In this document: positions 1,141-26,079 of the stretch, in pieces
How positions within the stretch are numbered: the first letter of the stretch is position 1
Layout: the number at the start of each line of letters is the position of its first letter
Source: an uncultured Clostridia bacterium
GTDB lineage: Bacteria > Bacillota > Clostridia > Oscillospirales > Ruminococcaceae
Length of the DNA: 35,186 nt
Assembly: GCA_946617595.1 (NCBI GenBank)
Contig: CAMOKN010000063.1
Coordinates: 1-35,186, forward strand
Direction: 5' to 3'
Notes under the pieces: model-generated
What the model saw: the letters and a program-made list of their open reading frames with translations, nothing else
Databases searched by the model: none
Told to the model about the DNA's origin: nothing
Translations under genes and position numbers: made by a program

Positions 1141-1887
1141 TTATCCCTCCGTTTCTGCTTCGGCGATCTTATGGCAGACATTCTGAGCGTATTTGGTGCC
1201 GATTATATCAGGAAGTATCTCGTCTCTGGTCCCCTGTCTGCTGATCCTGCCGTCTGCGATCACTACTATCTCATCGGCGATCTCAAGGATCCTTTCCTGA
1301 TGAGAGATAACAACGATAGAGCGGTTCTTGTCCGAATTGCGCATATTCTCAAATATACGGACAAGGTTTCCGAAGCTCCAGAGGTCTATACCTGCTTCCG
1401 GCTCATCGAACAGCGCGAGCTTTATATTTCTTGCAAGAACGGTCGCTATTTCGATACGCTTGAGTTCACCGCCGGAGAGTGAGGCGTTCACTTCACGGTT
1501 AATATAATCCTTTGCGCAGAGCCCGACTTCTGAAAGATGATCGCACGCCTGCGCAATTTTTATGGGCTTTCCCGCTGCTATGCGGAGAAGATCGAGGACG
1601 GTCAGCCCCTTGAATTTCACAGGCTGCTGAAATGCGAATCCTATACCGAGATTTGCTCTCTCGGTTATATTTTTTTCGGTGATATCTTCACCGTCAAAGA
1701 TTATCCTGCCGGACGAATTTTTTTCGATGCCTGCTATTACTTTAGCAAGCGTTGATTTTCCGCCGCCGTTGGGTCCGGTTATGACAACGAATTTGTTGTC
1801 CGGAACTGTCAGGCTTATGTCACGGATTATCTCAATATGTTTTCCGTCGGATTCTGCCCCGAAGGAGACATTTTTAAGTTCAAGCAT
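1141..1887 (-). CDS. sufC: SufC, ABC-type ATPase of Fe-S cluster assembly
   Basis: Soluble ABC ATPase that drives conformational change in the SufB-type scaffold. The 248-residue length is normal for SufC. Motifs in order: Walker A GPNGGGKST (38-46), Q-loop QQP (88-90), signature SLSGGELKR (136-144), Walker B LALFDEP (157-163) and switch histidine ISHQ (His196). There is no membrane partner, which is as expected for SufC. The start at 1887 is preceded by AAAGGAG. The gene is first in a two-gene minus-strand operon, and its stop is 2 nt before the sufB start. A TTGCAT-N17-TATAAT promoter lies about 70-95 bp upstream. No IscR-like site or regulator gene was seen. Confidence 0.95.
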   Translation of the reverse strand: MLELKNVSFGAESDGKHIEIIRDISLTVPDNKFVVITGPNGGGKSTLAKVIAGIEKNSSGRIIFDGEDITEKNITERANLGIGFAFQQPVKFKGLTVLDLLRIAAGKPIKIAQACDHLSEVGLCAKDYINREVNASLSGGELKRIEIATVLARNIKLALFDEPEAGIDLWSFGNLVRIFENMRNSDKNRSIVVISHQERILEIADEIVVIADGRISRQGTRDEILPDIIGTKYAQNVCHKIAEAETEG

Positions 1888-1953
1888 TTTTCTGCTCCTT
1901 TCTGTACTGGAGTCTGTATAATGTCAATACCTCATAAAGACTTCAACTCAATT

Positions 1954-1982
1954 ATTATAATACAAATTTACAGAAAATGCAA
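1954..1982 (-). promoter_or_regulatory. Sigma-A promoter of sufCB
   Basis: On the minus strand, TTGCAT (1982-1977), 17 nt, then TATAAT (1959-1954). This predicts transcription starting near 1947 and a leader of about 60 nt to the sufC ATG. The rest of the 296-bp divergent gap (1888-2183) is AT-rich and shows no other recognisable feature apart from the opposing promoter at 2095-2123. Confidence 0.7.
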
Positions 1983-2094
1983 GTGCAGATAAAAAATCAT
2001 ATATGTTTTAAATGAAATAGAAAAAGAAACGGTCATTTTTAACAATTTACGATCAAAATTATTGTCTGATATTAACAAATGAGCGAATAAAAAG

Positions 2095-2123
2095 TTGACT
2101 GTAAAATACGAGCGTGATATAAT
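2095..2123 (+). promoter_or_regulatory. Extended -10 sigma-A promoter of the cohesin/dockerin operon
   Basis: TTGACT (2095-2100), 17 nt, TATAAT (2118-2123), with TG at 2115-2116 giving an extended -10. Transcription should begin near 2130, leaving a leader of about 54 nt. The ribosome site of the first gene is weak: AAGGA at 2165-2169 is 14 nt from the ATG. Confidence 0.8.
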
Positions 2124-2183
2124 ATAAAATAGTATATTATGGGTAATTATGTATTCAGATAAGTAAGGATATGATGATATAAT

Positions 2184-3575
2184 ATGAAATTTCTGCTCAG
2201 ACTTGTGTCGATCCTGACGGCTGCCGCAGTAATGGCGGCACTAATGACCGGAGTATCGTATGCAGATACTCTGAATGGGATAGCTGTTTCGTCAAGTGCT
2301 TTGCACCCCGGTGACAAATTTACAGTTACTCTGACAGTTCCGCCGGCTGAGGACGCCGATACGGTATCTGTGCGTGCGGAGTTCGATCCGGCTGCATTCG
2401 AAGTGATATCCTGGAGTCCCGATATCAGCAATTCTTTGTCGAATTACGGCGAAGGATTCTTTGTGGTATCATCGTCGAATGTTTCAAGAGCGATAAAACT
2501 CGGAAGCGGACTGACAATGAAAGCGCAGCTCTCGGTAAAACAGAACGCTGTTCCCGGAACATACGCTGTAAAGCTTGCAAGATCAAGCATATCTTATGTT
2601 TCGGACGACGGCATCACTTCTGTCGAGCTGTGGAAGCCTGCTGTGACTCAGGTATCAATAAAGATAACAGCTTCTTCGCCGGCTGCCGGGATCGGCAGCA
2701 CCGATACGGCGGATACGGCACAGAATGTTCCGGCGAACATTCCCACAGGCGGCAGCGGAATAAAGAATACAAATACAGCCGGAACAACGGTTCACGACAG
2801 CCCGATCCCGATAGATAATGAAGAAACGGAAATTCCGGTTGATGACGAACAGGAAGAGAACGCACCGGAAAGCACGGGAAATGCAGGTGCCTCGAAAATA
2901 TCACTGAGCAATTCACTTGCCGGATTGTCCGGCGGAAAGATCAGGCTTACAACACAAAGCGATTTTTTCGATAATGACTCGGTCATAACGCTGTCACAGA
3001 GCGATGCTGCGGAAAAAACAGCAGCCTTTGCACTTGAAAGTCTCGGAATGAACGGTCATGGCTGCTATCCGTTCGATATCGGGATATACGAGAAGCAGAG
3101 CGGAAAAACTATAGATTCGCTTGACGGCGGATTCATCGAAATAACAATGCCGATACCGCAGATGTTTGAAAAAGCGGCGGACAGGCTCTCAGTATATCAT
3201 ATTGTCGGCGGATTCCCACAGCTGATAAGAAGCAGTATCACGATCGAAGAGGGTACGTTCAGGCTCACGTTCAGGACAAATTCGTTCTCGCCGTATATGA
3301 TAGTCGATACGGTGGGAGCACCGGCAGTTACCGGAGACAATGCCGACACTTACGGCAAGCCGGCAGGTGCCGGAGACAATGCCGATACATACGTAAAGCC
3401 TTTGGGAACCGCTCCTGCAAATACCGGAAATTCCGGCGGCAGACCGTTAAACCCCAATACCGGCGGAGTTATTGTCGCGGCAATAGCTGTACCCGGTGCT
3501 GCGGCAGGCTGCATGATACTTGCACGCAAGCAGATCAAACGCAGAAAAAGAACTAAAGGAAAGGGAATTGAGTGA
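2184..3575 (+). CDS. Wall-anchored surface protein with one cohesin-like domain
   Basis: Secreted protein of 463 residues, predicted to be attached to the cell wall. Residues 1-27 form a signal peptide ending SYA. Residues about 30-160 form a cohesin-like beta-sandwich domain: a PGDKFTVTLTVP strand, an ADTVSVRAEFDPAAFEV strand, an AQLSVKQNAVPGTYAVKL strand, and a closing VELWKP motif shared with all five repeats of the 6304 gene. A Thr/Ser/Glu-rich linker (160-235) leads to a domain of about 140 residues (236-375) ending NSFSPYMIV, also shared with that protein. A GDNADTY-x-KP unit is repeated twice near 385-405. The C-terminus is RPLNPNTGG (420-428), a hydrophobic helix and a KRRKR tail, a sortase-type signal with NPNTG in place of LPXTG. 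It is first in a three-gene operon. The cohesin assignment rests on pattern, not on a search. Confidence 0.75.
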   Translation: MKFLLRLVSILTAAAVMAALMTGVSYADTLNGIAVSSSALHPGDKFTVTLTVPPAEDADTVSVRAEFDPAAFEVISWSPDISNSLSNYGEGFFVVSSSNVSRAIKLGSGLTMKAQLSVKQNAVPGTYAVKLARSSISYVSDDGITSVELWKPAVTQVSIKITASSPAAGIGSTDTADTAQNVPANIPTGGSGIKNTNTAGTTVHDSPIPIDNEETEIPVDDEQEENAPESTGNAGASKISLSNSLAGLSGGKIRLTTQSDFFDNDSVITLSQSDAAEKTAAFALESLGMNGHGCYPFDIGIYEKQSGKTIDSLDGGFIEITMPIPQMFEKAADRLSVYHIVGGFPQLIRSSITIEEGTFRLTFRTNSFSPYMIVDTVGAPAVTGDNADTYGKPAGAGDNADTYVKPLGTAPANTGNSGGRPLNPNTGGVIVAAIAVPGAAAGCMILARKQIKRRKRTKGKGIE

Positions 3576-3576
3576 T

Positions 3577-6285
3577 ATGAAAACAAATTATTTCAGAAGG
3601 ATAACAGCGGCATTACTCGCGGCAGGTATGATATCAGCGACTCCGGCTATAGACAGCATAGTAGGGGGGATAGTGAGTATCGGCGCGGCGGCGTATTCAT
3701 ACGGAAATGTGAATGTCGGGGGAGTAAAGTATCTAACTAATTCAAATGGTTCAGCCTATGTGGCAGGCTACGCCGGTCCTGAAACCGATATAAATATATC
3801 TTCGGAGATTACTGATAGCGAAGGCGAAAAATATACGGTCACTTATATTGGTGATGATGTTTTTAAAGACAATACTGAGATAACATCAGTTAAAATATCT
3901 TCCGGAATAGAATCAATAGGGGAAAGTGCGTTTGAAGGCTGCATCAATCTTGAAAGTGTGGATCTCGGCAATGTTCAGCAGATAAGTATATCTGCATTTG
4001 AGGGCTGTACGTCGCTTACCGAAATAGAATTTCCAAAAAAGTCTGCCGATAATAATTGTTATATAGATAATTATGCTTTTAAAGATTGTACCGGACTTAA
4101 AAGCGCTGTTTTATCTGACATTCTGATTCATGAAAATGACAGCGGAGATATTTTTATGTATGTAAACGGAATATTTGTTGGCTGTACTGATCTTGAAAAC
4201 TATTATCTTGATGACGATATTGACAGTCTTATAGAAATAGACGGTGTAATTTATACAGCTGACGGGAAGACGATAAAAGCATTTCCTGTGGGGCGTACTG
4301 AGTTTGAAATACCAGAAGGTGTTACAACAATAGGTGGCTTCAATTATTCTAATATAACAACTGTAACTATCCCCGGAAGTGTTAAAACAGTGGAAGGATT
4401 TTTCGGCTGTAAAAAACTGAGAACAGTTATTATAAACGAAGGCGTCGTAAAAATTGGATTCAGTGCTTTCTCAGGTTGCACGGCTTTAGAAAGTATTGAC
4501 CTTCCCAACAGTATTACAGAAATCGGCAGCGATGCCTTCAAATGCTGTATCGCTCTCGAAAGTGTTGATCTCCCCGATAGCATTATTAATATCGGATCGG
4601 ATGCTTTTTCGGGATGCTTTGCTTTTGAAAGTATAGATATACCCCAAAATACCCAAACAATAGGTGCCAATGCTTTTTCTGGCTGTCATAAGATCAAAAG
4701 CTTATATATCCCCGCCTCTGTTAAAGTGATAGGTGGAAATCCGGTGGCAAGCATATCCGGAGCATATTGCAACGGACAATATTTTGATTATGATGATATG
4801 CAGATAAAGGAGATAAATGTTTCTCCTGATAACAAATACTATAAAAGCATAGACGGTGTACTATATAACTATGATCTTACAGAGATAATAGCCTATCCAG
4901 CTGCAAAAACAGGCGGTTCCATAGAATTGCCGTCAGGAGTAAATAAAATATGGAACAGTGCTTTTTTAAACTGTGATAAACTTGAAAGTATAATATTTTC
5001 GGAAAATGTCACCGATATCGGATTTAGCGCTTTTGAAGAATGTGACAACCTGAAAGATATATCATTTTTTACTGATGAGAAGGTCGTTCCGGAACATATT
5101 AAATCAATATCACTTGATGCATTCAATTACTGCAAAAGCATAACGACTCTGAGCATACCTTCGTGTGTTACGAATATATTTGCCGATTGTATCATAGGGT
5201 GCAGCAGCCTTACATCGGTAACTATTCCGGAGAGTGTATCCATACTGCGTTATAGCTATGACTGCAAGCCAGATGACAGCGTTCCTCCGTTCTATGGTTC
5301 ACAGCTCAGCACTGTTTATGGATATAAAGATTCTTTTGCCGAAGAACTGGCTGACAAGGACGGATATGATTTTGTTTCTATAGGAGAAGCAACAAATATA
5401 CCGATTATACTGGAATGCACTCCCCAGTGTGAAATTTACTATAAGCCGGAAACGACCAAAGCAGTTTGGGTATTTATAGGAAGGATCCCGAAAGCAGAGT
5501 CATATAATATTTACCGTTCAGAGTCTCCCGACGGAGAAAAAACACTGATAAAAAGCTTAGATCAGATAACTTATGAAAACAGGTTATACGATAATGATAA
5601 TATTGATTACTATTGGTATTATATAAACAGGTCAATCAACTGGCTTCGTGAAGGCAGAGATGTGTGGGGATTAGGTTACAGAGATACCGATATAAAGCCA
5701 TACAAAACCTACTACTACTTTGCAACCTCCGTTGACGAAGACGGCAATGAATCCGGTTTCTCTGACTACGCAATGGTAAGCACAGGAGAAGAGGAGCCAG
5801 CCCCCGACCCTGAACCCGACGAAACAGCTATCTCCGGCACTCTTTCTTCATACGACCGCTCAATGGGAAGCCTTACGGTAAAACTCACTGACAAGAACGG
5901 CAAGACACAGACAAAATTCTCGTCGGACGGCACATACTCATTCAATGATCTTGATGAGGACGAGACATATACACTGTCATTCTCGCTGCCGAGACACGTT
6001 CAGAGAACATACCGGAATGTTGCTGCCGGAAGCGAGCTTGATCCCTCGCTTAACCTTTACGGCGATATAAACGGTGACGGCAGTGTTGATGCAAAGGACG
6101 CAACGCAGATACTCAGATATGATGCGGGAATGAACGGTCTTATACGAAAGCCCGACAAGTCCGAGGACGATTATCTCAAAGCTGTCGGAAACATTACCGG
6201 CACCGGCGCTCCCACCGCAAGAGACGCAACACAGATACTAAGGTATGACGCTGGTATCCCAAGCCGCCTGTCAAAATTACTGTGA
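3577..6285 (+). CDS. Secreted BspA-like leucine-rich-repeat protein with C-terminal dockerin
   Basis: The start at 3577 is chosen over an in-frame ATG at 3520 because it follows AAAGGAAAGGG, begins 1 nt after the previous stop, and opens with a signal peptide (MKTNYFRR plus a hydrophobic stretch). The 902-residue protein has about 20 LRR_5 (BspA-type) units across residues 85-600, with the repeated pattern IGxxAFxGCxxLExVxLP. A fibronectin III-like region with SYNIYRSESPDGE and TYYYFATSVDEDGNESG follows (about 610-740), then a carboxypeptidase-regulatory/CNA-B-like beta domain (748-825). The dockerin (829-898) has a good first calcium loop DINGDGSVDAKD and a degenerate second one, NITGTGAPTARD. 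It should bind a cohesin, plausibly those encoded on either side. The ligand of the LRR part (host protein, polysaccharide or another cell) cannot be told. The LRR region is more AT-rich than the dockerin end. Confidence 0.88.
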   Translation: MKTNYFRRITAALLAAGMISATPAIDSIVGGIVSIGAAAYSYGNVNVGGVKYLTNSNGSAYVAGYAGPETDINISSEITDSEGEKYTVTYIGDDVFKDNTEITSVKISSGIESIGESAFEGCINLESVDLGNVQQISISAFEGCTSLTEIEFPKKSADNNCYIDNYAFKDCTGLKSAVLSDILIHENDSGDIFMYVNGIFVGCTDLENYYLDDDIDSLIEIDGVIYTADGKTIKAFPVGRTEFEIPEGVTTIGGFNYSNITTVTIPGSVKTVEGFFGCKKLRTVIINEGVVKIGFSAFSGCTALESIDLPNSITEIGSDAFKCCIALESVDLPDSIINIGSDAFSGCFAFESIDIPQNTQTIGANAFSGCHKIKSLYIPASVKVIGGNPVASISGAYCNGQYFDYDDMQIKEINVSPDNKYYKSIDGVLYNYDLTEIIAYPAAKTGGSIELPSGVNKIWNSAFLNCDKLESIIFSENVTDIGFSAFEECDNLKDISFFTDEKVVPEHIKSISLDAFNYCKSITTLSIPSCVTNIFADCIIGCSSLTSVTIPESVSILRYSYDCKPDDSVPPFYGSQLSTVYGYKDSFAEELADKDGYDFVSIGEATNIPIILECTPQCEIYYKPETTKAVWVFIGRIPKAESYNIYRSESPDGEKTLIKSLDQITYENRLYDNDNIDYYWYYINRSINWLREGRDVWGLGYRDTDIKPYKTYYYFATSVDEDGNESGFSDYAMVSTGEEEPAPDPEPDETAISGTLSSYDRSMGSLTVKLTDKNGKTQTKFSSDGTYSFNDLDEDETYTLSFSLPRHVQRTYRNVAAGSELDPSLNLYGDINGDGSVDAKDATQILRYDAGMNGLIRKPDKSEDDYLKAVGNITGTGAPTARDATQILRYDAGIPSRLSKLL

Positions 6286-6303
6286 TCGGAAACGAGGTAA
6301 ATA

Positions 6304-9300
6304 ATGATGAAACGATTGAAAGCATTATTATTGTCACTGTCCATGCTGATATTTTCGGCTGTTCCGTCAATTCCGGCTTCGGCAGATACGGACGCAATTG
6401 TGACCGACGGTATCTGTACATCTGTGACCAGAGCTGCTCAGGGCGATGAGTTTTATGTGTATATCAAGGTCCCAGCTCAGAACAGCAAGGCTGATTCCGT
6501 CAGTATCCATGTAAGTTTTGAGGAAGATGTTTTTGAGGTGATCGAGTGGGATTCACACACCGATGAAGAATATGAAAAAATCGGAGAAAATTTTTTCAGG
6601 GCATCTCACGGAAACGCGGCTGCCGATATAGACCTTACTGAAGGTATCACTATGGAGGCAAAGGTAAAGGTAAAAGAAGATGCCGAGCCCGGAGATCATT
6701 CATTCAAAGTCGAAAAGAGCAGTCTGAGTCATTGGGACGAAGAACAGAATAAAGAGGTCGATCTGTGGACTGCCGGTATAACGGAGGCTAAGATCAAGGT
6801 CGTTGAGGCAGGCGCTGATACCCAGAATGCCGTTACAGGCGGCGGGATCTCGGTTCCGGATAAAACATACAAGCCCGGTGATACATTTGAGGCAAGCGTT
6901 ATTATTCCGGAGATACCGACTATGGCGGACAGTATATCGATCAGAGTGGAGTTTGATGAGGACGCATTTGACGTGATCGAATGGTCACCGTCCCAGCTTA
7001 AAGGCGATTGGTACGATGATGCGAAAAACAGCAACTTTAACGGGTTTACTCCTCTGGCAAACTGCAAAGGTTTCTTTGCTCTGTCATACGGCAGCAAAAA
7101 AGCCAATATTGATCTGTCTGACGGGCTCACGCTGAAAGCCACGCTTCAGGTAAAGAGCGGAGCTGCGATAGGCGATCATATATTCACGCTTAAAAATTAT
7201 GATATTTCTTTTGCCGATGATTATGACAGCGGTGAACCCAAACCCCTGTGGATCCCTGAGATCTATGATGATACTGTGAAAGTTACCGAAAAAGATGACC
7301 TTTCTGTTACCGGCGGCGGTATAAGTCTGTCCGACAATGATCTTACCGCAGGAGATAAGTTCGATCTGTTTGTAAATATCCCGCAGCTTTTGCGCAAGGC
7401 GGATCATGCAGAAATAAATGTAGAGTACAACAGCAGTGCTTTTGAAGTGCTTTCGTGGAATTCAGGCATAAGCGGCGTATCCGAAAAAGTGGACGAAACC
7501 AAGGGAATACTCAGCTTCACATACGACAGCAGCACAGCGGCACTTGACTTTACGGACTCGGAAATACTTATTGCAAATATGATAGTAAGGAGCGGCGCTT
7601 CAACCGATACGGAGACGTTTGAACTCACAAGCTGGAGTGTTGTATATACCGATGAACTCGGAGTAAAGCATGAGCTGTGGGATACTCCTGAAAAGAACAG
7701 AACTGTGTCTGCAAAAGTAAGAGCTATAAGCGATCTGACTGTAAAAAGCGACGGCATAAGTGTTTCAAGTTCGAGAGTAAGCGTCGGGCAAACCTTTAAT
7801 GTGAATGTAAAAATACCTGCGCTGAATCACGCCGCAGACAAGATCAATATAAAAGTTGAGTTTGACAGCGATGCTTTTGCGCTTGTCACATGGACATCTC
7901 ATCTTTCCGGAGTTAATGAAGAATCAGGAGAAAATTACTTCAGTGTGACAACAGGCACTGCTTCAAGTATTCTGATAAACTCACCCATAACAATAACAGC
8001 AAGGCTGAAGGTCAGAAACGGAGCAGTTCAGGAGAGATATCCTATCAGACTCGTCGCATCTACGATCTCATACGCAGATGACTACGGATATACGCACAAG
8101 CTGTGGAGCCCTAAAAATGAAACGGCTTATGTTAATGTTATCGGAACATCTTCCGACGACTCTGTTTACGGCGGCGGAATAAGGCTTTCTGACACATATC
8201 TTAATCCCGGAAATGAGTTCTACGTTTATATTGATGTTCCGGCAATAGGTGAATATGCCGATCATGCGGCGATCAGAGTTGACTACAATTATCAGGCTTT
8301 CGAGCTTCTGGACTGGGATCCGTATATCACAGGCGCAAAATCTACAAGCTATCCCGGATATTTCATCTTATCCGCGTCTAACAGCAGCAGGAATATCGAC
8401 CTCAGCCAGAGCCGTCGTTTTACCGCAAAAATGAAGGTGCGCAACACGGCACCCTCCGGATATTATAATTTTGAACTTTCCACCGGAAGATTTTTCTACA
8501 TGGATGATAACGGTTATGATACGCATGAACTGTGGAGCCCGGCGTACAAATATGCCGCACTGACAGTCGGCGCCGGTTACACCACGACCTATCCGCAGGT
8601 AACGATACGCGATCCGTGGAATGTTCCGGATAACTGGAATGTCGTGACCACCACAACAACACTGGAGACGATACGACGTCCTACAGATGACGATGACGAC
8701 GAACCCGATAAGATCGTTACGGAGGATCGTGATACGGCATATTATCCCGAAGATGATGAAGAAGACATAGATCCGTCAGATGATGATACAACGAGGCAGG
8801 CTTCGGGAAACATCGAAATAACGCTGGACAATGAGCTTGACAGTCTCACCGCCGGTAAGGTGGTATTAAATACCTACAAGAAGTTCTTTGACCACAGCGT
8901 TATAATAATCATAAGGCGCACGGCTGCCGCAAATGAAGCCGGAACATACGCCCTGAGAAATCTCGGAATGGAGAATAACGAAAGTTACGCATTTGATATA
9001 AGTCTCTATGACACTGTTACAGGGCAGTATATACATTCACTCGGGGACGGATATATAGAGTTTGATATACCTGTTCCGTCAACCCTTGCCGACGATCTTG
9101 CCGCCGTAAGGCTTTACCATACAGACGGCAATTACCCTCAGCGCATCGACAGCAGTATTATTGTAGAGAACGGTCAGAAGAAGATACATTTCCGTGCGGA
9201 TTCTTTCTCTCCGTATCTGATGACCGGAGGAATAAAGCAAAGCGGCGGCTCACAGCTTGTCGATCCCATTGATGTGAACGGCGGCAAGAGTGCCGGTCCG

Positions 9301-9423
9301 CTCAATCCAAACACCGGAATTGCTGCGGCGATCGTAATACCTGCCGCGCTCACCGGCTGTGCATTCCTTGTACGAAAGAAGACAAAGCACAGAAAGAGAG
9401 CTAAGGTAAAGAGAGAAGACTGA
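6304..9423 (+). CDS. Wall-anchored scaffoldin-like protein with five cohesin-like domains
   Basis: Predicted secreted, wall-attached protein of 1039 residues. A signal peptide (about 1-27, ending ASA) is followed by five related domains at about 31-177, 178-333, 334-476, 477-618 and 619-758. Each repeats a GGGIS-type opening strand, a G(D/Q/N)xF-xVxIP strand, ADxxxIxVxFDxxAFxVxxW, a (T/K)AxxxVxxxA strand, and a closing (H)ELW(S/T)P motif. A Thr/Asp-rich acidic linker (759-840) precedes a domain of about 140 residues ending DSFSPYLM. The C-terminus has GPLNPNTG (998-1005), a hydrophobic helix and a basic KHRKRAKVKR tail. The last two parts are paralogous to the 2184 protein. GAGG precedes the ATG, and the gap to the dockerin gene is 18 bp. 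The likely role is to display several dockerin proteins, including the neighbouring LRR protein. The domains are divergent, so 'cohesin-like' is inference. Confidence 0.75.
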   Translation: MMKRLKALLLSLSMLIFSAVPSIPASADTDAIVTDGICTSVTRAAQGDEFYVYIKVPAQNSKADSVSIHVSFEEDVFEVIEWDSHTDEEYEKIGENFFRASHGNAAADIDLTEGITMEAKVKVKEDAEPGDHSFKVEKSSLSHWDEEQNKEVDLWTAGITEAKIKVVEAGADTQNAVTGGGISVPDKTYKPGDTFEASVIIPEIPTMADSISIRVEFDEDAFDVIEWSPSQLKGDWYDDAKNSNFNGFTPLANCKGFFALSYGSKKANIDLSDGLTLKATLQVKSGAAIGDHIFTLKNYDISFADDYDSGEPKPLWIPEIYDDTVKVTEKDDLSVTGGGISLSDNDLTAGDKFDLFVNIPQLLRKADHAEINVEYNSSAFEVLSWNSGISGVSEKVDETKGILSFTYDSSTAALDFTDSEILIANMIVRSGASTDTETFELTSWSVVYTDELGVKHELWDTPEKNRTVSAKVRAISDLTVKSDGISVSSSRVSVGQTFNVNVKIPALNHAADKINIKVEFDSDAFALVTWTSHLSGVNEESGENYFSVTTGTASSILINSPITITARLKVRNGAVQERYPIRLVASTISYADDYGYTHKLWSPKNETAYVNVIGTSSDDSVYGGGIRLSDTYLNPGNEFYVYIDVPAIGEYADHAAIRVDYNYQAFELLDWDPYITGAKSTSYPGYFILSASNSSRNIDLSQSRRFTAKMKVRNTAPSGYYNFELSTGRFFYMDDNGYDTHELWSPAYKYAALTVGAGYTTTYPQVTIRDPWNVPDNWNVVTTTTTLETIRRPTDDDDDEPDKIVTEDRDTAYYPEDDEEDIDPSDDDTTRQASGNIEITLDNELDSLTAGKVVLNTYKKFFDHSVIIIIRRTAAANEAGTYALRNLGMENNESYAFDISLYDTVTGQYIHSLGDGYIEFDIPVPSTLADDLAAVRLYHTDGNYPQRIDSSIIVENGQKKIHFRADSFSPYLMTGGIKQSGGSQLVDPIDVNGGKSAGPLNPNTGIAAAIVIPAALTGCAFLVRKKTKHRKRAKVKRED

Positions 9424-9755
9424 AAGGCAGATGTCCTCGCAGACGGCGCTGGGGCTCCGCTTTGATTGGCTTATATGTGCGCATCGTGCTCTCTCTTGGG
9501 CAGTCTATCGCCGCATCATGCAGCGACCCCGTCCCCGCTGCTTTTCAATGTGAAAAGCAGCAAAAGCAGATCACGTTAAAACGGAACTTGAAAAGATTCA
9601 TCATATAATGAAAGCACAGAGCTTTTCAGATGTCAAGCTCATTTCGTCCTTCGGACGAACAAATGGCTTCAAGCTGCGCTATGAAGCCATTTGTTGGCTG
9701 ATGAGCAGACATTAATTATTGCGGTACATGATCGGAAAAAGGATAGTGGTACACC
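9424..9755. other. Repeat-rich intergenic region, no gene
   Basis: This 332-bp gap holds small palindromes but no credible coding frame. CTGCTTTTC and GAAAAGCAG form a 9-bp stem (9538-9560), but no T-run follows, so it is a doubtful terminator. A 22-nt block (9574-9595, starting CGTTAAAACGG) recurs inverted at 28861-28882. ATCGCCGCATCATGC (from 9508) recurs at 28910. A TATAAT at 9604-9609 lacks a good -35. A 7-bp hairpin, TTCGTCC-TTC-GGACGAA (9643-9659), touches the 59-nt element at 9658-9716. Confidence 0.7.
9658..9716 (+). repeat. 59-nt hairpin leader element, copy A (upstream of the 9756 gene)
   Basis: Exact 59/59 reverse-complement match to 20486-20544. It has a perfect 13-bp stem, AACAAATGGCTTC (9658-9670) with GAAGCCATTTGTT (9683-9695), and a 12-nt loop. 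A GGCTGATGAGCAGACATTAAT tail follows. The ATTAAT end is 39 bp before the next ATG. The other copy sits in the same orientation, about 41 bp before the tex ATG. It is either a mobile palindromic repeat or a shared leader RNA element. Confidence 0.75.
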
Positions 9756-10166
9756 ATGTTTGGAGCAAAAATAGAATCTTTCAATATCATTACACTTCGT
9801 GAAACAGGTATGCGTGGCACAACAGAGTATGAGATCGTGACGAAGGACGATATAGCAGAAGTGTCATTTTACCGGATCAGATACACGCAGAGTCAGGATA
9901 GCCGTGAGCTTGACAGACGTGTCGTGTGCAGTAAAGAAACTATCATAAAGCTGCTTAATGGCTGTCATATTCTGTCGTGGAGAGGATTCGTCGGGGAGTG
10001 TCCGAAAGATGTCCTTGACGGAATAGCGTTCACTTTCGAAGCGACCGTCAATCAGGATAAAAAGATATATGCACGAGGTTCACAGAACTTTCCGGAATAT
10101 TACGGAGATTTTATCAATGGGTTGCGTGATATTCTTGATAATAAACAGAATATGATAATCACATGA
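9756..10166 (+). CDS. Conserved-looking small protein of unknown function
   Basis: I do not recognise this 136-residue protein. It has no signal peptide or membrane segment. It looks like a compact beta-rich domain: alternating strands in the first 60 residues (YEIVTKDD, AEVSFYRIRYTQ), then VCSKETIIKLLNGCHILSWRGF, a second sheet with FTFEATVNQDKKIYARGS, and a closing helix FINGLRDILD. The lone Trp in SWRGF and the QNFPEYYGDF segment could be surface or binding features. AAGGA lies about 13 nt before the ATG, a rather long spacing. The 59-nt hairpin element is in its leader. It is 62 bp upstream of the GH3 gene on the same strand and may be cotranscribed with it. Confidence 0.65.
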   Translation: MFGAKIESFNIITLRETGMRGTTEYEIVTKDDIAEVSFYRIRYTQSQDSRELDRRVVCSKETIIKLLNGCHILSWRGFVGECPKDVLDGIAFTFEATVNQDKKIYARGSQNFPEYYGDFINGLRDILDNKQNMIIT

Positions 10167-10228
10167 CAAAGCATTTGTTTTTTAACGCACGTTAGCGGAA
10201 ATAAATTAATAATTAGGGAGGAAAAATT

Positions 10229-11935
10229 ATGTATGAAGTGTTGAATCAAATGCGCCGAAATGGGATCGAGGACAGGGAGAAGCTTGTGGCGTGGTTTGAT
10301 ATCATGACAAGAAAACCTATGGAAGTCCAGACAAAACTGCTGCTGGAGCTCCTGAATGAAAATAAGGACACCGAATACGGAAAGAAATATGGATTTGCAA
10401 ATATCAGCTCGATCGAAGAATACCGGAAACAAGTTCCGATCACCGAGTATGATGATTACGCACCGTACATTGAACGAATGGTAAATAACGGAGAAGATAA
10501 CCTTATTTGCAGTCAGAAGCCTGTCTGGTACAACAAGACGTCCGGAACTGTAGGCGTTCCGAAAAAGATTCCTTACACACAAAGGACACGGGACTGCTTT
10601 ACCCGATACAGCCTGGGTTATCAATCAGGATTTTTATACAGACATCTTCAGGATAAATATTTTGGCGGTCGCTGGCTGAATCTGATACGCTGCGGCGGCT
10701 CAATAATCAGGCTCGCTGACGGAACTCCTTACGGACCGATCTCCGAGGCGTCTCTGCGGCCATATATCGACAAATGGCAGCACATTTTCCCCACTCCGAG
10801 TCAGGCAACATTTTCTCCGAAAGGCACCGATACAAGATATCTGAATTCAAGATATGCACTCTGCGACAAGGACCTGAACAATATAGCATGTACATTTACA
10901 GGCTTTATTCTTGATTTCTGCCGTTACATAGAAAAGAATTGGAAGCTTCTTGTAAATGACATTGAAAAGGGAGTTATAGATGACTCTATTGAGCTTCCCG
11001 AAGATTTAAGAGAGAGCCTTAGTGCTGAGCTAAAACCCATGCCGGAGCGTGCGGCGGAGCTGAAGGCTATCTTTGAGAAGGGGTTTGATACGCCGTTTAT
11101 CCCGAAGGTCTGGAAAGATCTTCGATTCGTTGTGGGCGGAGCTTCCGCAGGATTTGCAAGATACACAAATGAAGTACGCGAACGATATCTTGGAACAGAC
11201 ATAGCATTTTACTATCGTGGGATCTCGGCTTCAGAGGGCATTTTTTCTGTTCCGGTCGAACTTGCGTCACATGAATCTGCTCTTATCCCGGATTCATTGT
11301 TTTATGAATTTATTCCTGTTGACGAAGAAAACGCTGAGCCTGTCACTATGGACAGACTTGAGGTAGGAAAAAAATATGAGCTTGTCATAACCAATCATTC
11401 GGGCTTCTACCGTTATCGAATGAAAGATGTGATTTTGGTCACGGGTTTTTACAACGCCACACCTTTGGTAGAATTTCAGTACCGTATTGATAAGACTGTA
11501 AGCCTAATGGGCGAGAAGACCACGGAAATGGCGCTTCGTGTCGCGGCGGACAATACCGCGAAAGAATGCGGCTTTCTGCTGGTGGACAGCTCCGTTTATC
11601 CCGATACCGATGATGTCAGATATGTATTCATAATGGAGATAGACCGTGTGCCAAAAGAGCTGGATGCTGAAACTGTCATTGATTGCCTTGAAAGGAATCT
11701 GGAGGCGGTCAACCCCTCGTATGCGGATAAGGTCAGAAACGGTCTTATAAAGCCTTTGAAGCTTGTATTTGCGCAACCTGAGACGTATGTGCTGTACAAA
11801 GAGATGATGCTGATGAAAGGCAATTCTATCGCACAGCTCAAACCTGTAACAGTAATAGGAAATGAATTGCAAAGGAAATTTTTCTTTGCTCTTATCGAGG
11901 ACTTTGAAGAAATCAAAAGGGTGTCTGCGCTATAA
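10229..11935 (+). CDS. GH3-family acyl-adenylate-forming enzyme (acyl acid-amido synthetase-like)
   Basis: Cytoplasmic enzyme of the GH3 ('auxin-responsive promoter') superfamily, which adenylates a carboxylic acid with ATP and, in the plant members, transfers it to an amino acid. The 568 residues match family length. Visible motifs: the ATP/phosphate loop YNKTSGTVGVPKK (101-113), the FVVGGASAGF region after residue 290, YYRGISASEG near 330, the nucleotide-site motif FYRYRMKDVILVTGF (393-407), and MGEKTTE a little later. The usual YRYRxGDV glycine is lysine here (K399). A strong GGGAGG precedes the start. Substrate and acceptor cannot be predicted; no biosynthetic partner genes are adjacent. 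Bacterial GH3 proteins are poorly characterised. Confidence 0.88.
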   Translation: MYEVLNQMRRNGIEDREKLVAWFDIMTRKPMEVQTKLLLELLNENKDTEYGKKYGFANISSIEEYRKQVPITEYDDYAPYIERMVNNGEDNLICSQKPVWYNKTSGTVGVPKKIPYTQRTRDCFTRYSLGYQSGFLYRHLQDKYFGGRWLNLIRCGGSIIRLADGTPYGPISEASLRPYIDKWQHIFPTPSQATFSPKGTDTRYLNSRYALCDKDLNNIACTFTGFILDFCRYIEKNWKLLVNDIEKGVIDDSIELPEDLRESLSAELKPMPERAAELKAIFEKGFDTPFIPKVWKDLRFVVGGASAGFARYTNEVRERYLGTDIAFYYRGISASEGIFSVPVELASHESALIPDSLFYEFIPVDEENAEPVTMDRLEVGKKYELVITNHSGFYRYRMKDVILVTGFYNATPLVEFQYRIDKTVSLMGEKTTEMALRVAADNTAKECGFLLVDSSVYPDTDDVRYVFIMEIDRVPKELDAETVIDCLERNLEAVNPSYADKVRNGLIKPLKLVFAQPETYVLYKEMMLMKGNSIAQLKPVTVIGNELQRKFFFALIEDFEEIKRVSAL

Positions 11936-23886: not shown

Positions 23887-26079
23887 ATGAAGAAGATTAT
23901 TTCACTGTTTGCAGCGGCGGCGGTTCTTATCGCGGGGGGCTGTTCGGGCGGTGATCCGGCGCAGACAAGTGCTGTTACACAGGACTTGCAGACCGGGCAG
24001 ACAACAGATGATGAGTACAATGACAGCGAAACCGATGCACCTGTAGGCGGCGAAAACACAGAAACCACAGTGCGTCAGCCCGTATCAGGATATCGTCTGT
24101 CGGTAGAAGACCCGACGGGAAAGATGTCTGTCGAACGTGCTCCGGAAAAATCGACCCCAATGGGCGATGAGGATACATGGACGATATTTGTGTATCTCTG
24201 CGGTACCGATCTTGAAAGCGATCTCAGTATGGCATCTCTTGATATTTATGAAATGGGTGACGCTGAGGCAAGCGAAAATATTAAATTTGTCGTTCAGACA
24301 GGCGGCACAAGTCAATGGGACGATGAATCTTTTAGCAATGATGTCTGTCAGCGCTGGGTCGTGACGGACGGCGGCAAGGAGCTTGCGGACAGTGTTCCGC
24401 TCGCAAATATGGGTGATCCCGCTACCCTGGAAAGCTTTCTTGAATGGGGAGTGGAAAATTATCCTGCCGATAAAATGGGGGCTGTATTCTGGGATCACGG
24501 CGGCGGATCTATCACAGGCGTATGCTTTGATGAGCTCTACGAAAGTGATTCGCTCTCACTTGCGGAGATCAACACCGCTCTTTCAGACGTTTATGACAAG
24601 ATGACCGACAAGTTCGAGTTCATCGGATTTGACTGCTGCCTCATGGCAACTGCCGAAACAGCAAACATTCTTGCTACTTACGCAAGATATTTATACGCCT
24701 CCCAGGAGTTGGAGACAGATACAGGCTGGGATTATCAGACCATAGGTACATATCTTGCTCAGAATCCCGAATGTGACGGAGGGGAACTCGGACAGATAGT
24801 GGCTGACAGCTACTTCAGCGACAGCGCGGAGATATATCAGGACAGCGAGAGTACATTTTCTGTCATGGATCTTGAAAAGACCGATGATTTCATCAAGGCG
24901 TTCAACGATTATGCGTATAAGCTTTATGATGCGGCACAGACTGAATTTACCGGTATAGTGAGAGGCATCAACAAGGCGGATAATTTCGGCGGCAATACAG
25001 AGACTGAGGGATATACAAACATGGTCGATATCGGCAGTATCATCGAGCAATGCTCGCAATATGCCGACGGCACCGAAGCCCTTTCTGCGCTGAGTGATTG
25101 TATAGTTTACATAATAAACGGCAGCGATCATCCGGACGCGTGCGGACTTTCGATATACTTTCCGCTTGCAATACAGGGATCGGAAGAACTCAGCATATTC
25201 TCCGGTATCTGTATAAGCCCGTACTATCTCTCTCTTGTCGATATGGAAGCATCAGGATATGCTTCCGGCGGTTACAGCAATTCTGCCCTCTTCACCGAGG
25301 ACGGAAAATGGACAGAGAACAATTGTGTGTGCGAAACTTGTGAGGCGGGATATTTCAGCAGTTCATCAGATATCGACAGCTCAGAGAGCGAACTTATCGT
25401 ATTTGCGGAAAAACCTCACATCAATGAGAGCGGGATATACACATTCAGACTTGAAGAAGAGAGCCTGAACTGCACCGAAAGTGTCAATGCGTACATTTAT
25501 CTTGAAAATGAAAACGGCGATCTGGTCGAGCTCGGTGAAACAAATGACATCTACGCAGACTGGGACGAGGGCGTTTTCGAGGACTACTTTGACGGATACT
25601 GGCTCGGACTCGGTGACGGGCAGATACTTGCGGCATACGTTGTTGATGAAACCGATGAATATACCATTTTCACTTCTCCGGTGAAATTGAACGGTACTCC
25701 CACAAATCTGCGCATACGTGTGTATTTTGATCAGACTGTTATTGTTGACGGAACATGGGACGGCGTTGACGAAAACGGTGTTGCTGCACGCAAAATAAAT
25801 AAGCTCACAGCCGGAGACAAGATCGAGCCTTTGTATTATCTCGAAGACGAAACTGTATTTCCGGGCAGTGAGTATTTGTGGGAAGACAGCGGCAAAGATG
25901 CAGGATTCAAAGTGCTGCCTGTAGGGGATTATTACTATGGATTCTATATTTATGATGTTTACGGCGATTATTGCCCGACCGACTATGTGGTTTTCACTAT
26001 AGATGAAGAAGGAAACATATATTTCTACGGTGATGAAGACGGAAACTACAGCGATGGCGGCAGCCGCGATGATGAATAA
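23887..26079 (+). CDS. Clostripain-family (peptidase C11) lipoprotein
   Basis: Predicted secreted cysteine peptidase of 730 residues tethered as a lipoprotein: signal peptide with lipobox IAGGC, modified Cys19. A Gly/Asp/Thr-rich linker leads to the C11 domain, starting TWTIFVYLCGTDLESD near residue 98. The catalytic dyad is His204 in FWDHGGGS and Cys251 in GFDCCLMA, where most relatives have Asp-Ala-Cys. C11 enzymes usually cleave after Arg or Lys. The C-terminal 250 residues are beta-rich and acidic, possibly a binding or pro-domain. The ribosome site is weak (GAAAGAAG). It is last in its operon and followed by a terminator at 26267. Confidence 0.93.
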   Translation: MKKIISLFAAAAVLIAGGCSGGDPAQTSAVTQDLQTGQTTDDEYNDSETDAPVGGENTETTVRQPVSGYRLSVEDPTGKMSVERAPEKSTPMGDEDTWTIFVYLCGTDLESDLSMASLDIYEMGDAEASENIKFVVQTGGTSQWDDESFSNDVCQRWVVTDGGKELADSVPLANMGDPATLESFLEWGVENYPADKMGAVFWDHGGGSITGVCFDELYESDSLSLAEINTALSDVYDKMTDKFEFIGFDCCLMATAETANILATYARYLYASQELETDTGWDYQTIGTYLAQNPECDGGELGQIVADSYFSDSAEIYQDSESTFSVMDLEKTDDFIKAFNDYAYKLYDAAQTEFTGIVRGINKADNFGGNTETEGYTNMVDIGSIIEQCSQYADGTEALSALSDCIVYIINGSDHPDACGLSIYFPLAIQGSEELSIFSGICISPYYLSLVDMEASGYASGGYSNSALFTEDGKWTENNCVCETCEAGYFSSSSDIDSSESELIVFAEKPHINESGIYTFRLEEESLNCTESVNAYIYLENENGDLVELGETNDIYADWDEGVFEDYFDGYWLGLGDGQILAAYVVDETDEYTIFTSPVKLNGTPTNLRIRVYFDQTVIVDGTWDGVDENGVAARKINKLTAGDKIEPLYYLEDETVFPGSEYLWEDSGKDAGFKVLPVGDYYYGFYIYDVYGDYCPTDYVVFTIDEEGNIYFYGDEDGNYSDGGSRDDE

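Follow-up and report, generated by a model that had tools for sequence, protein, structure and literature searches.

Cohesin-dockerin pairs are mostly regarded as the joint in machines that digest fibre. For Ruminococcus flavefaciens FD-1, the published account describes leucine-rich-repeat (LRR) proteins with a dockerin (LRR-Doc), an LRR-cohesin-dockerin protein (LRR-Coh-Doc), ScaI, and an anchored single-cohesin protein, ScaE, which binds ScaI (PMC5301203). The same text lists ScaI, the Coh-Doc proteins ScaH and ScaF, ScaB, and CttA as the group-4a dockerin proteins of the ScaE system and reports no interaction with the tested cohesins for most of the dockerins that came from LRR proteins (PMC5301203). 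The R. bromii amylosome includes two LRR-Doc proteins, Doc1 and Doc2, and a two-cohesin sortase-type scaffoldin, Sca5 (PMC9112005). Here, we analyzed a three-gene operon in a 35,186 nt stretch of DNA (the window) from an uncultured Clostridia bacterium of the Ruminococcaceae (contig CAMOKN010000063.1). We consider it probable that the three genes form the core of a dedicated network of cohesins and dockerins at the cell surface, one whose cargo is non-enzymatic.

The three genes (Table 1) are separated by gaps of 1 nt and then 18 nt. Both the first and the third product begin with a signal-peptide-like stretch and contain cohesin-like domains, a conserved C-terminal domain designated XD, and an NPNTG sorting signal. 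The middle protein was counted from the ATG at 3577, and the ORF (open reading frame) lister gave a TTG start at 3520. The first-pass annotation had described one operon in which one-cohesin and five-cohesin anchored proteins flank an LRR-dockerin protein, and the ORFs, Pfam matches, and profiles confirmed this layout.

Pfam Cohesin matched three stretches of the 1039-aa protein (E 6.9e-18) and gave no match to the single domain of the 463-aa protein; in the whole genome of this bacterium, it found only two cohesin places, compared with eight for our family profile. Profiles of our own were therefore needed. Leave-one-out profiles of the six window domains scored 100-127 bits, against at most 6.5 bits in 200 shuffles each; because the difference exceeded 90 bits, the six-domain repeat is not due to chance. 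A 50-row family profile searched against the PDB gave 19 matches, every one a cohesin entry. The six-domain profile, at E up to 1, returned three cohesins and six transaminase entries; the latter disappeared with the 50-row profile and were taken as chance matches. By sequence profile and predicted beta-sandwich fold, the window domains are members of the cohesin family, so that the proposed cohesin identity was borne out by profile and, for the modelled cohesin 1, by fold. A closing (E/K)LW(S/T/K)P motif had been attributed to all six domains. Its LW core was kept in 6/6, but the strict form was found in only three (ELWKP, KLWSP, and ELWSP), the others ending in DLWTA, PLWIP, and ELWDT. In the retrieved loci, 140 domains passed the E 1e-6 threshold and were longer than 105 residues; a W near the end was present in 139 of them, preceded by a hydrophobic residue in 125 and followed two positions later by P in 120.

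The 902-aa protein matched LRR_5 (PF13306) above the cut-off (247.6 bits, E 2.5e-74), as expected of a BspA-type LRR protein. The statement that it bears a dockerin was supported by both Pfam and PDB matches. Dockerin_1 (PF00404) scored 20.8 bits (E 4.4e-4), just below the cut-off of 22.9, and 24.9 bits in the genome search, and a 13-member dockerin profile matched 29 sequences in the PDB (E up to 0.1), with the ScaH dockerin of R. flavefaciens as the top match, a likeness to that system. The first loop of the window dockerin is canonical (DINGDGSVDAKD) and the second is degenerate (NITGTGAPTARD), with DATQILR in both F-helices. Judged from its sequence, this is a type I dockerin with two repeats of calcium loop and F-helix, despite the degenerate second loop. 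In the 13 dockerins, Asp occupied position 1 in 13/13 first loops and in 2/13 second loops, positions 1, 3, and 5 were all kept in 9/13 and 1/13, respectively, and the second F-helix began with DATQI in 13/13. This asymmetry would fit binding through the helices more than through two calcium sites.

Searching 71 genomes of the genus with the dockerin profile gave matches in 25 at E 1e-6, with a stepped score distribution: 29 strong dockerins at 1.1e-22 or better came from 14 genomes, and the next matches, at 3.8e-17 and weaker, came from 11 others. The cohesin profile matched 20 of the 71 genomes at E 1e-5, 18 of them strongly (best E 3.2e-32 or better), with G061 and G023 as the marginal ones. 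All 14 strong-dockerin genomes fell within the 18 strong-cohesin genomes (kinship uncorrected), and four genomes (G063, G077, G007, and G072) had cohesins but no strong dockerin. Each of the 29 strong dockerins was located either in a cohesin protein (18 at E <1e-6) or no more than 1.74 kb from a same-strand cohesin gene. The view that strong dockerins of the window type occur only in or beside cohesin genes therefore held for 29/29 in 14 genomes. The profile was built from 13 of these 29 dockerins, from six genomes, a source of selection bias; after removal of the source genomes, the overlap with cohesin genomes was still 8/8.

The cargo of the 29 dockerin proteins was scanned with Pfam at E cut-offs of 1, 0.01, 0.001, and 0.001, the L054 protein at 9893 being represented by its identical copy in L105. 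LRR_5 was found in 12 proteins, and our local profiles detected cohesin matches in 21 (18 strong, three weak or partial); five were LRR proteins without a cohesin. One protein (L085, 4280-6862) carried a Cthe_2159 carbohydrate-binding domain, so the cargo is not LRR alone. InlB-type repeats were present in the L088 protein, CarboxypepD_reg-type matches alone in the L086 protein, and a weak match to the C-terminal, non-catalytic part of glycoside hydrolase family 85 (GH85) enzymes in the L092 protein. No Pfam catalytic domain was found on any of the 29 proteins.

Four dockerin ORFs were found in the genome of the window, which is 87.7% complete, and none had a Pfam catalytic domain; the dockerin-bearing polysaccharide-degrading enzymes that characterize a cellulosome were thus not seen in it. 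The operon had been called self-contained, which did not prove correct, as two further contigs encode cohesins of the family. C115 carries an LRR-cohesin-CarboxypepD_reg-dockerin protein, whose gene is the only cohesin gene on that contig, and C17 encodes a short single-cohesin protein of the family that has a membrane-type tail; together with the six window domains, these account for all eight. Two of the four dockerin ORFs were of another dockerin type: a 128-aa ORF with the dockerin alone and a 793-aa protein (L141 399-2780, G000:C283) in which chitobiase-C and Fn3_assoc repeats surround the dockerin. Among the matches listed, many genomes of the genus had this other type in ORFs of roughly 780-861 aa, possibly one conserved protein.

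Outside the genus, the sampled genomes gave only weak cohesin matches. In the order sample, 20/394 genomes, including the window's own, matched at E 1e-5, the best other match being a weak one at 1.2e-12; in the phylum sample, 2/398 matched at 1e-8, namely the same genome and G619 (2e-14). The match in G112, a 264-aa protein, looks by eye like a different cohesin-dockerin protein. Several relatives are recorded as metagenome-assembled genomes from goat or deer gut.

Across 37 loci, several of them cut by contig ends, the recurring parts were an anchored single-cohesin protein, an LRR-dockerin protein, an LRR-cohesin-dockerin or cohesin-dockerin protein, and an anchored multi-cohesin protein with between two and eight of the domains. 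A membrane-tailed single-cohesin gene was also frequent, and not all parts were present in every locus. In a tree of the 140 domains, the 14 anchored single cohesins fell into a 16-leaf clade (support 0.936) together with two multi-type domains, and 11 of the 12 membrane single cohesins made up a separate clade (0.89). Another clade (0.998) united seven adaptor cohesins, drawn from seven genomes, and a further one (0.827) united 11 multi-type domains, three of which, those named, stand last in their row; the ten plain adaptor cohesins, taken together, did not form one clade. Separate conserved classes suggest distinct partners, and the separate clades of anchored single, membrane single, and adaptor cohesins may reflect different docking specificities and so a layered assembly. 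One relative (L049 6971-10666, G002:C4) encodes a 1231-aa protein that lacks a dockerin match and has one family cohesin and a membrane-type tail; the cohesin is flanked by stretches resembling, by eye, another LRR type.

Docking was judged by the predicted template modelling score (pTM) of natural neighbours folded as a single chain, with bridging rows in the alignment. For the window dockerin tethered to cohesin 1 of the 1039-aa protein, the pTM was 0.57, approximately our own estimate for two confident but unplaced domains. Docking onto a neighbouring cohesin, which the first-pass annotation expected, was therefore not predicted for the only window pair modelled, and this weighs against the network proposed above. 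For a relative, L120, the dockerin tethered to the following membrane-tailed single cohesin gave a pTM of 0.78, with linker residues 87-105 at a predicted local distance difference test (pLDDT) value <50; the alignment was made by the same method from the same rows plus two. The two models, one pair each from different species and with no outside control, suggest that the membrane single cohesin, and not cohesin 1, may be the cognate socket.

The predicted anchoring signal is NPNTG followed by a hydrophobic stretch and a basic tail, not LPxTG. Within the last 60 residues, NPxTG was found in 36/36 cohesin-XD proteins, and in 33/36 by a stricter pattern. NF033846, a model of NPXTG-anchored Ruminococcus surface proteins, gave 13.8 bits (E 0.053) for the 1039-aa protein, below its cut-off of 23.5, and no match was listed for the 463-aa protein, though both have the motif. 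For the XD domains, which lie between the cohesins and NPxTG, no Pfam family was listed at E up to 1; XD was also seen without a cohesin in L103 6623-8299 (G061). Contig C284 of the same genome has three sortase genes in a row, two of them above the Pfam cut-off; the class B model was best for all three, at E values between 4e-41 and 8e-35 but under the curated cut-off. Class B sortases accept NP-type motifs.

Compared with that of R. flavefaciens, the system is similar in having Coh-Doc proteins, one with LRRs, and a single-cohesin protein, here with a predicted sortase anchor. In contrast, no enzyme-bearing dockerins were found here, the multi-cohesin protein is itself predicted to be anchored, and the sorting motif is NPxTG rather than the LPXTG of ScaE (PMC5301203). 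The LW(x)P ending of the cohesins and the scarcity of Asp at position 1 of the second calcium loop are further differences. The R. bromii amylosome likewise has a sortase-type scaffoldin and LRR-Doc passengers, but it also has amylases as passengers, and none were seen here (PMC9112005). LRR proteins with a dockerin, like the docked partner proposed in the first-pass annotation, are known already as LRR-Doc and LRR-Coh-Doc proteins (PMC5301203, PMC9112005). Since these parts are known, the novelty lies in their dedicated assembly, which is apparently enzyme-free and has a cohesin family of its own. In the literature consulted, mostly open text, there was no account of this family or of an enzyme-free LRR cohesin-dockerin system.

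To our knowledge, no wall scaffold with adaptors has been described for the cohesin systems of Archaeoglobus fulgidus or Clostridium perfringens. By their entry titles, the A. fulgidus (2xdh) and C. perfringens (2jh2, 2vo8, and 2w1n) structures share a non-cellulosomal cohesin fold with the domains described here, although the C. perfringens modules are on glycoside hydrolases.

The gene layout, domain identity, co-occurrence, and cargo type establish a real, conserved gene system, from which we infer docking, layered assembly, and adhesion. In the proposed network, class-B-like sortases would fix the two secreted proteins to the wall at NPxTG, exposing one and five cohesins, and the secreted LRR protein would remain on the surface through its dockerin, which would dock into a family cohesin in a calcium-dependent manner. 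The C115 protein may be an adaptor that lengthens the chain, much as ScaI, ScaH, and ScaF, which combine cohesin and dockerin, dock on ScaE in R. flavefaciens. The LRRs and other cargo domains would most likely attach to plant particles, other microbes, or mucus, as guessed from the types of domain. Of the adhesion and host interaction to which the first-pass annotation pointed, only adhesion is plausible, from the kind of cargo. Because the genes for LRR-dockerins lie next to those for a single cohesin family, with no enzymes among them, the partner can be tested directly; this compact system would add a class of cohesin-dockerin specificity and reveal the joint at work in building an attachment surface. 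A more far-reaching and doubtful form is a polymerising enzyme-free "adhesome", in which Coh-Doc adaptors join head to tail on anchored one- to eight-cohesin proteins as a calcium-dependent, exchangeable surface lattice that displays LRRs and other binding domains. If true, cohesin-dockerin assembly would serve attachment, not digestion, across a branch of gut bacteria.

The LRR protein might instead be a minor passenger, as in R. flavefaciens and R. bromii, in a branch of an ordinary cellulosome or amylosome whose scaffold docks polysaccharide-degrading enzymes, these being encoded in sequence that the draft genome lacks or bearing dockerins too divergent to be found. LRR-dockerin proteins do belong to true cellulosomes and amylosomes (PMC2930009, PMC5301203, PMC9112005), and the Cthe_2159 domain of L085 would suit such a branch. 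Two members of the genus, G070 and G023, have 25-28 Pfam dockerin matches; however, G070 has no family cohesin match, and that of G023 is marginal (8.8e-6). The absence of Pfam enzyme domains from both the genome's four dockerin ORFs and the 29 window-type dockerin proteins also makes this explanation improbable. It could also be supposed that the cohesin-like domains no longer dock and are stalk or adhesin beta-sandwiches, the dockerin protein being adjacent through shared regulation only. The cohesin 1 model, while having a cohesin fold, tied in Z with a CLIPPER domain of a fibrillar adhesin (9ifr, 13.3), pilin domains coming next at about 11, and the failed window pair and the four genomes lacking strong dockerins point the same way. 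Against this, the PDB matches were all cohesins, linkage and genome-level co-occurrence of dockerins and cohesins were consistent, the L120 dockerin was placed on its cohesin in the prediction, and some proteins fuse a family cohesin to a window-type dockerin; we regard a loss of docking as unlikely.

Table 1. Positions of the operon and its features in the window.
Feature	Position	Strand	Basis or remark
Promoter-like site, TTGACT-17-TATAAT, TG ahead of -10	2095..2123	+	consensus match only
Single-cohesin surface protein, predicted NPxTG-anchored, 463 aa	2184..3575	+	
Cohesin domain of 463-aa protein, anchored single type	2268..2675	+	family profile, tree
XD domain of 463-aa protein, conserved, C-terminal	2895..3308	+	
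Sorting signal of 463-aa protein: NPNTG, hydrophobic stretch, basic tail	3450..3572	+	
Secreted BspA-type LRR protein, dockerin at C-terminus, 902 aa	3577..6285	+	
CarboxypepD_reg-like domain adjoining dockerin	5824..6048	+	E 1.1e-4, below Pfam cut-off
Dockerin of 902-aa protein	6049..6282	+	Pfam, own profile, loop inspection
Five-cohesin scaffold protein, predicted NPxTG-anchored, 1039 aa	6304..9423	+	
Cohesin 1 of 1039-aa protein	6391..6810	+	family profile; structure model with cohesin fold
Cohesin 2 of 1039-aa protein	6826..7293	+	family profile
Cohesin 3 of 1039-aa protein	7303..7719	+	family profile
Cohesin 4 of 1039-aa protein	7738..8148	+	family profile
Cohesin 5 of 1039-aa protein	8158..8574	+	family profile
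XD domain of 1039-aa protein	8812..9222	+	
Sorting signal of 1039-aa protein: NPNTG, hydrophobic stretch, basic tail	9304..9420	+	

The promoter-like site matches 11/12 consensus positions and lies about 60 nt upstream of the first gene; the consensus-only search of 1850-10300 gave 22 such sites, compared with an expectation of 17.4 from shuffles. Positions 10229-11935, a short way downstream of the operon, encode a member of the GH3 N-terminal domain family (PF03321, E 8.8e-70), and a clostripain-family (C11) peptidase is encoded at 23887-26079 (E 3.7e-38).
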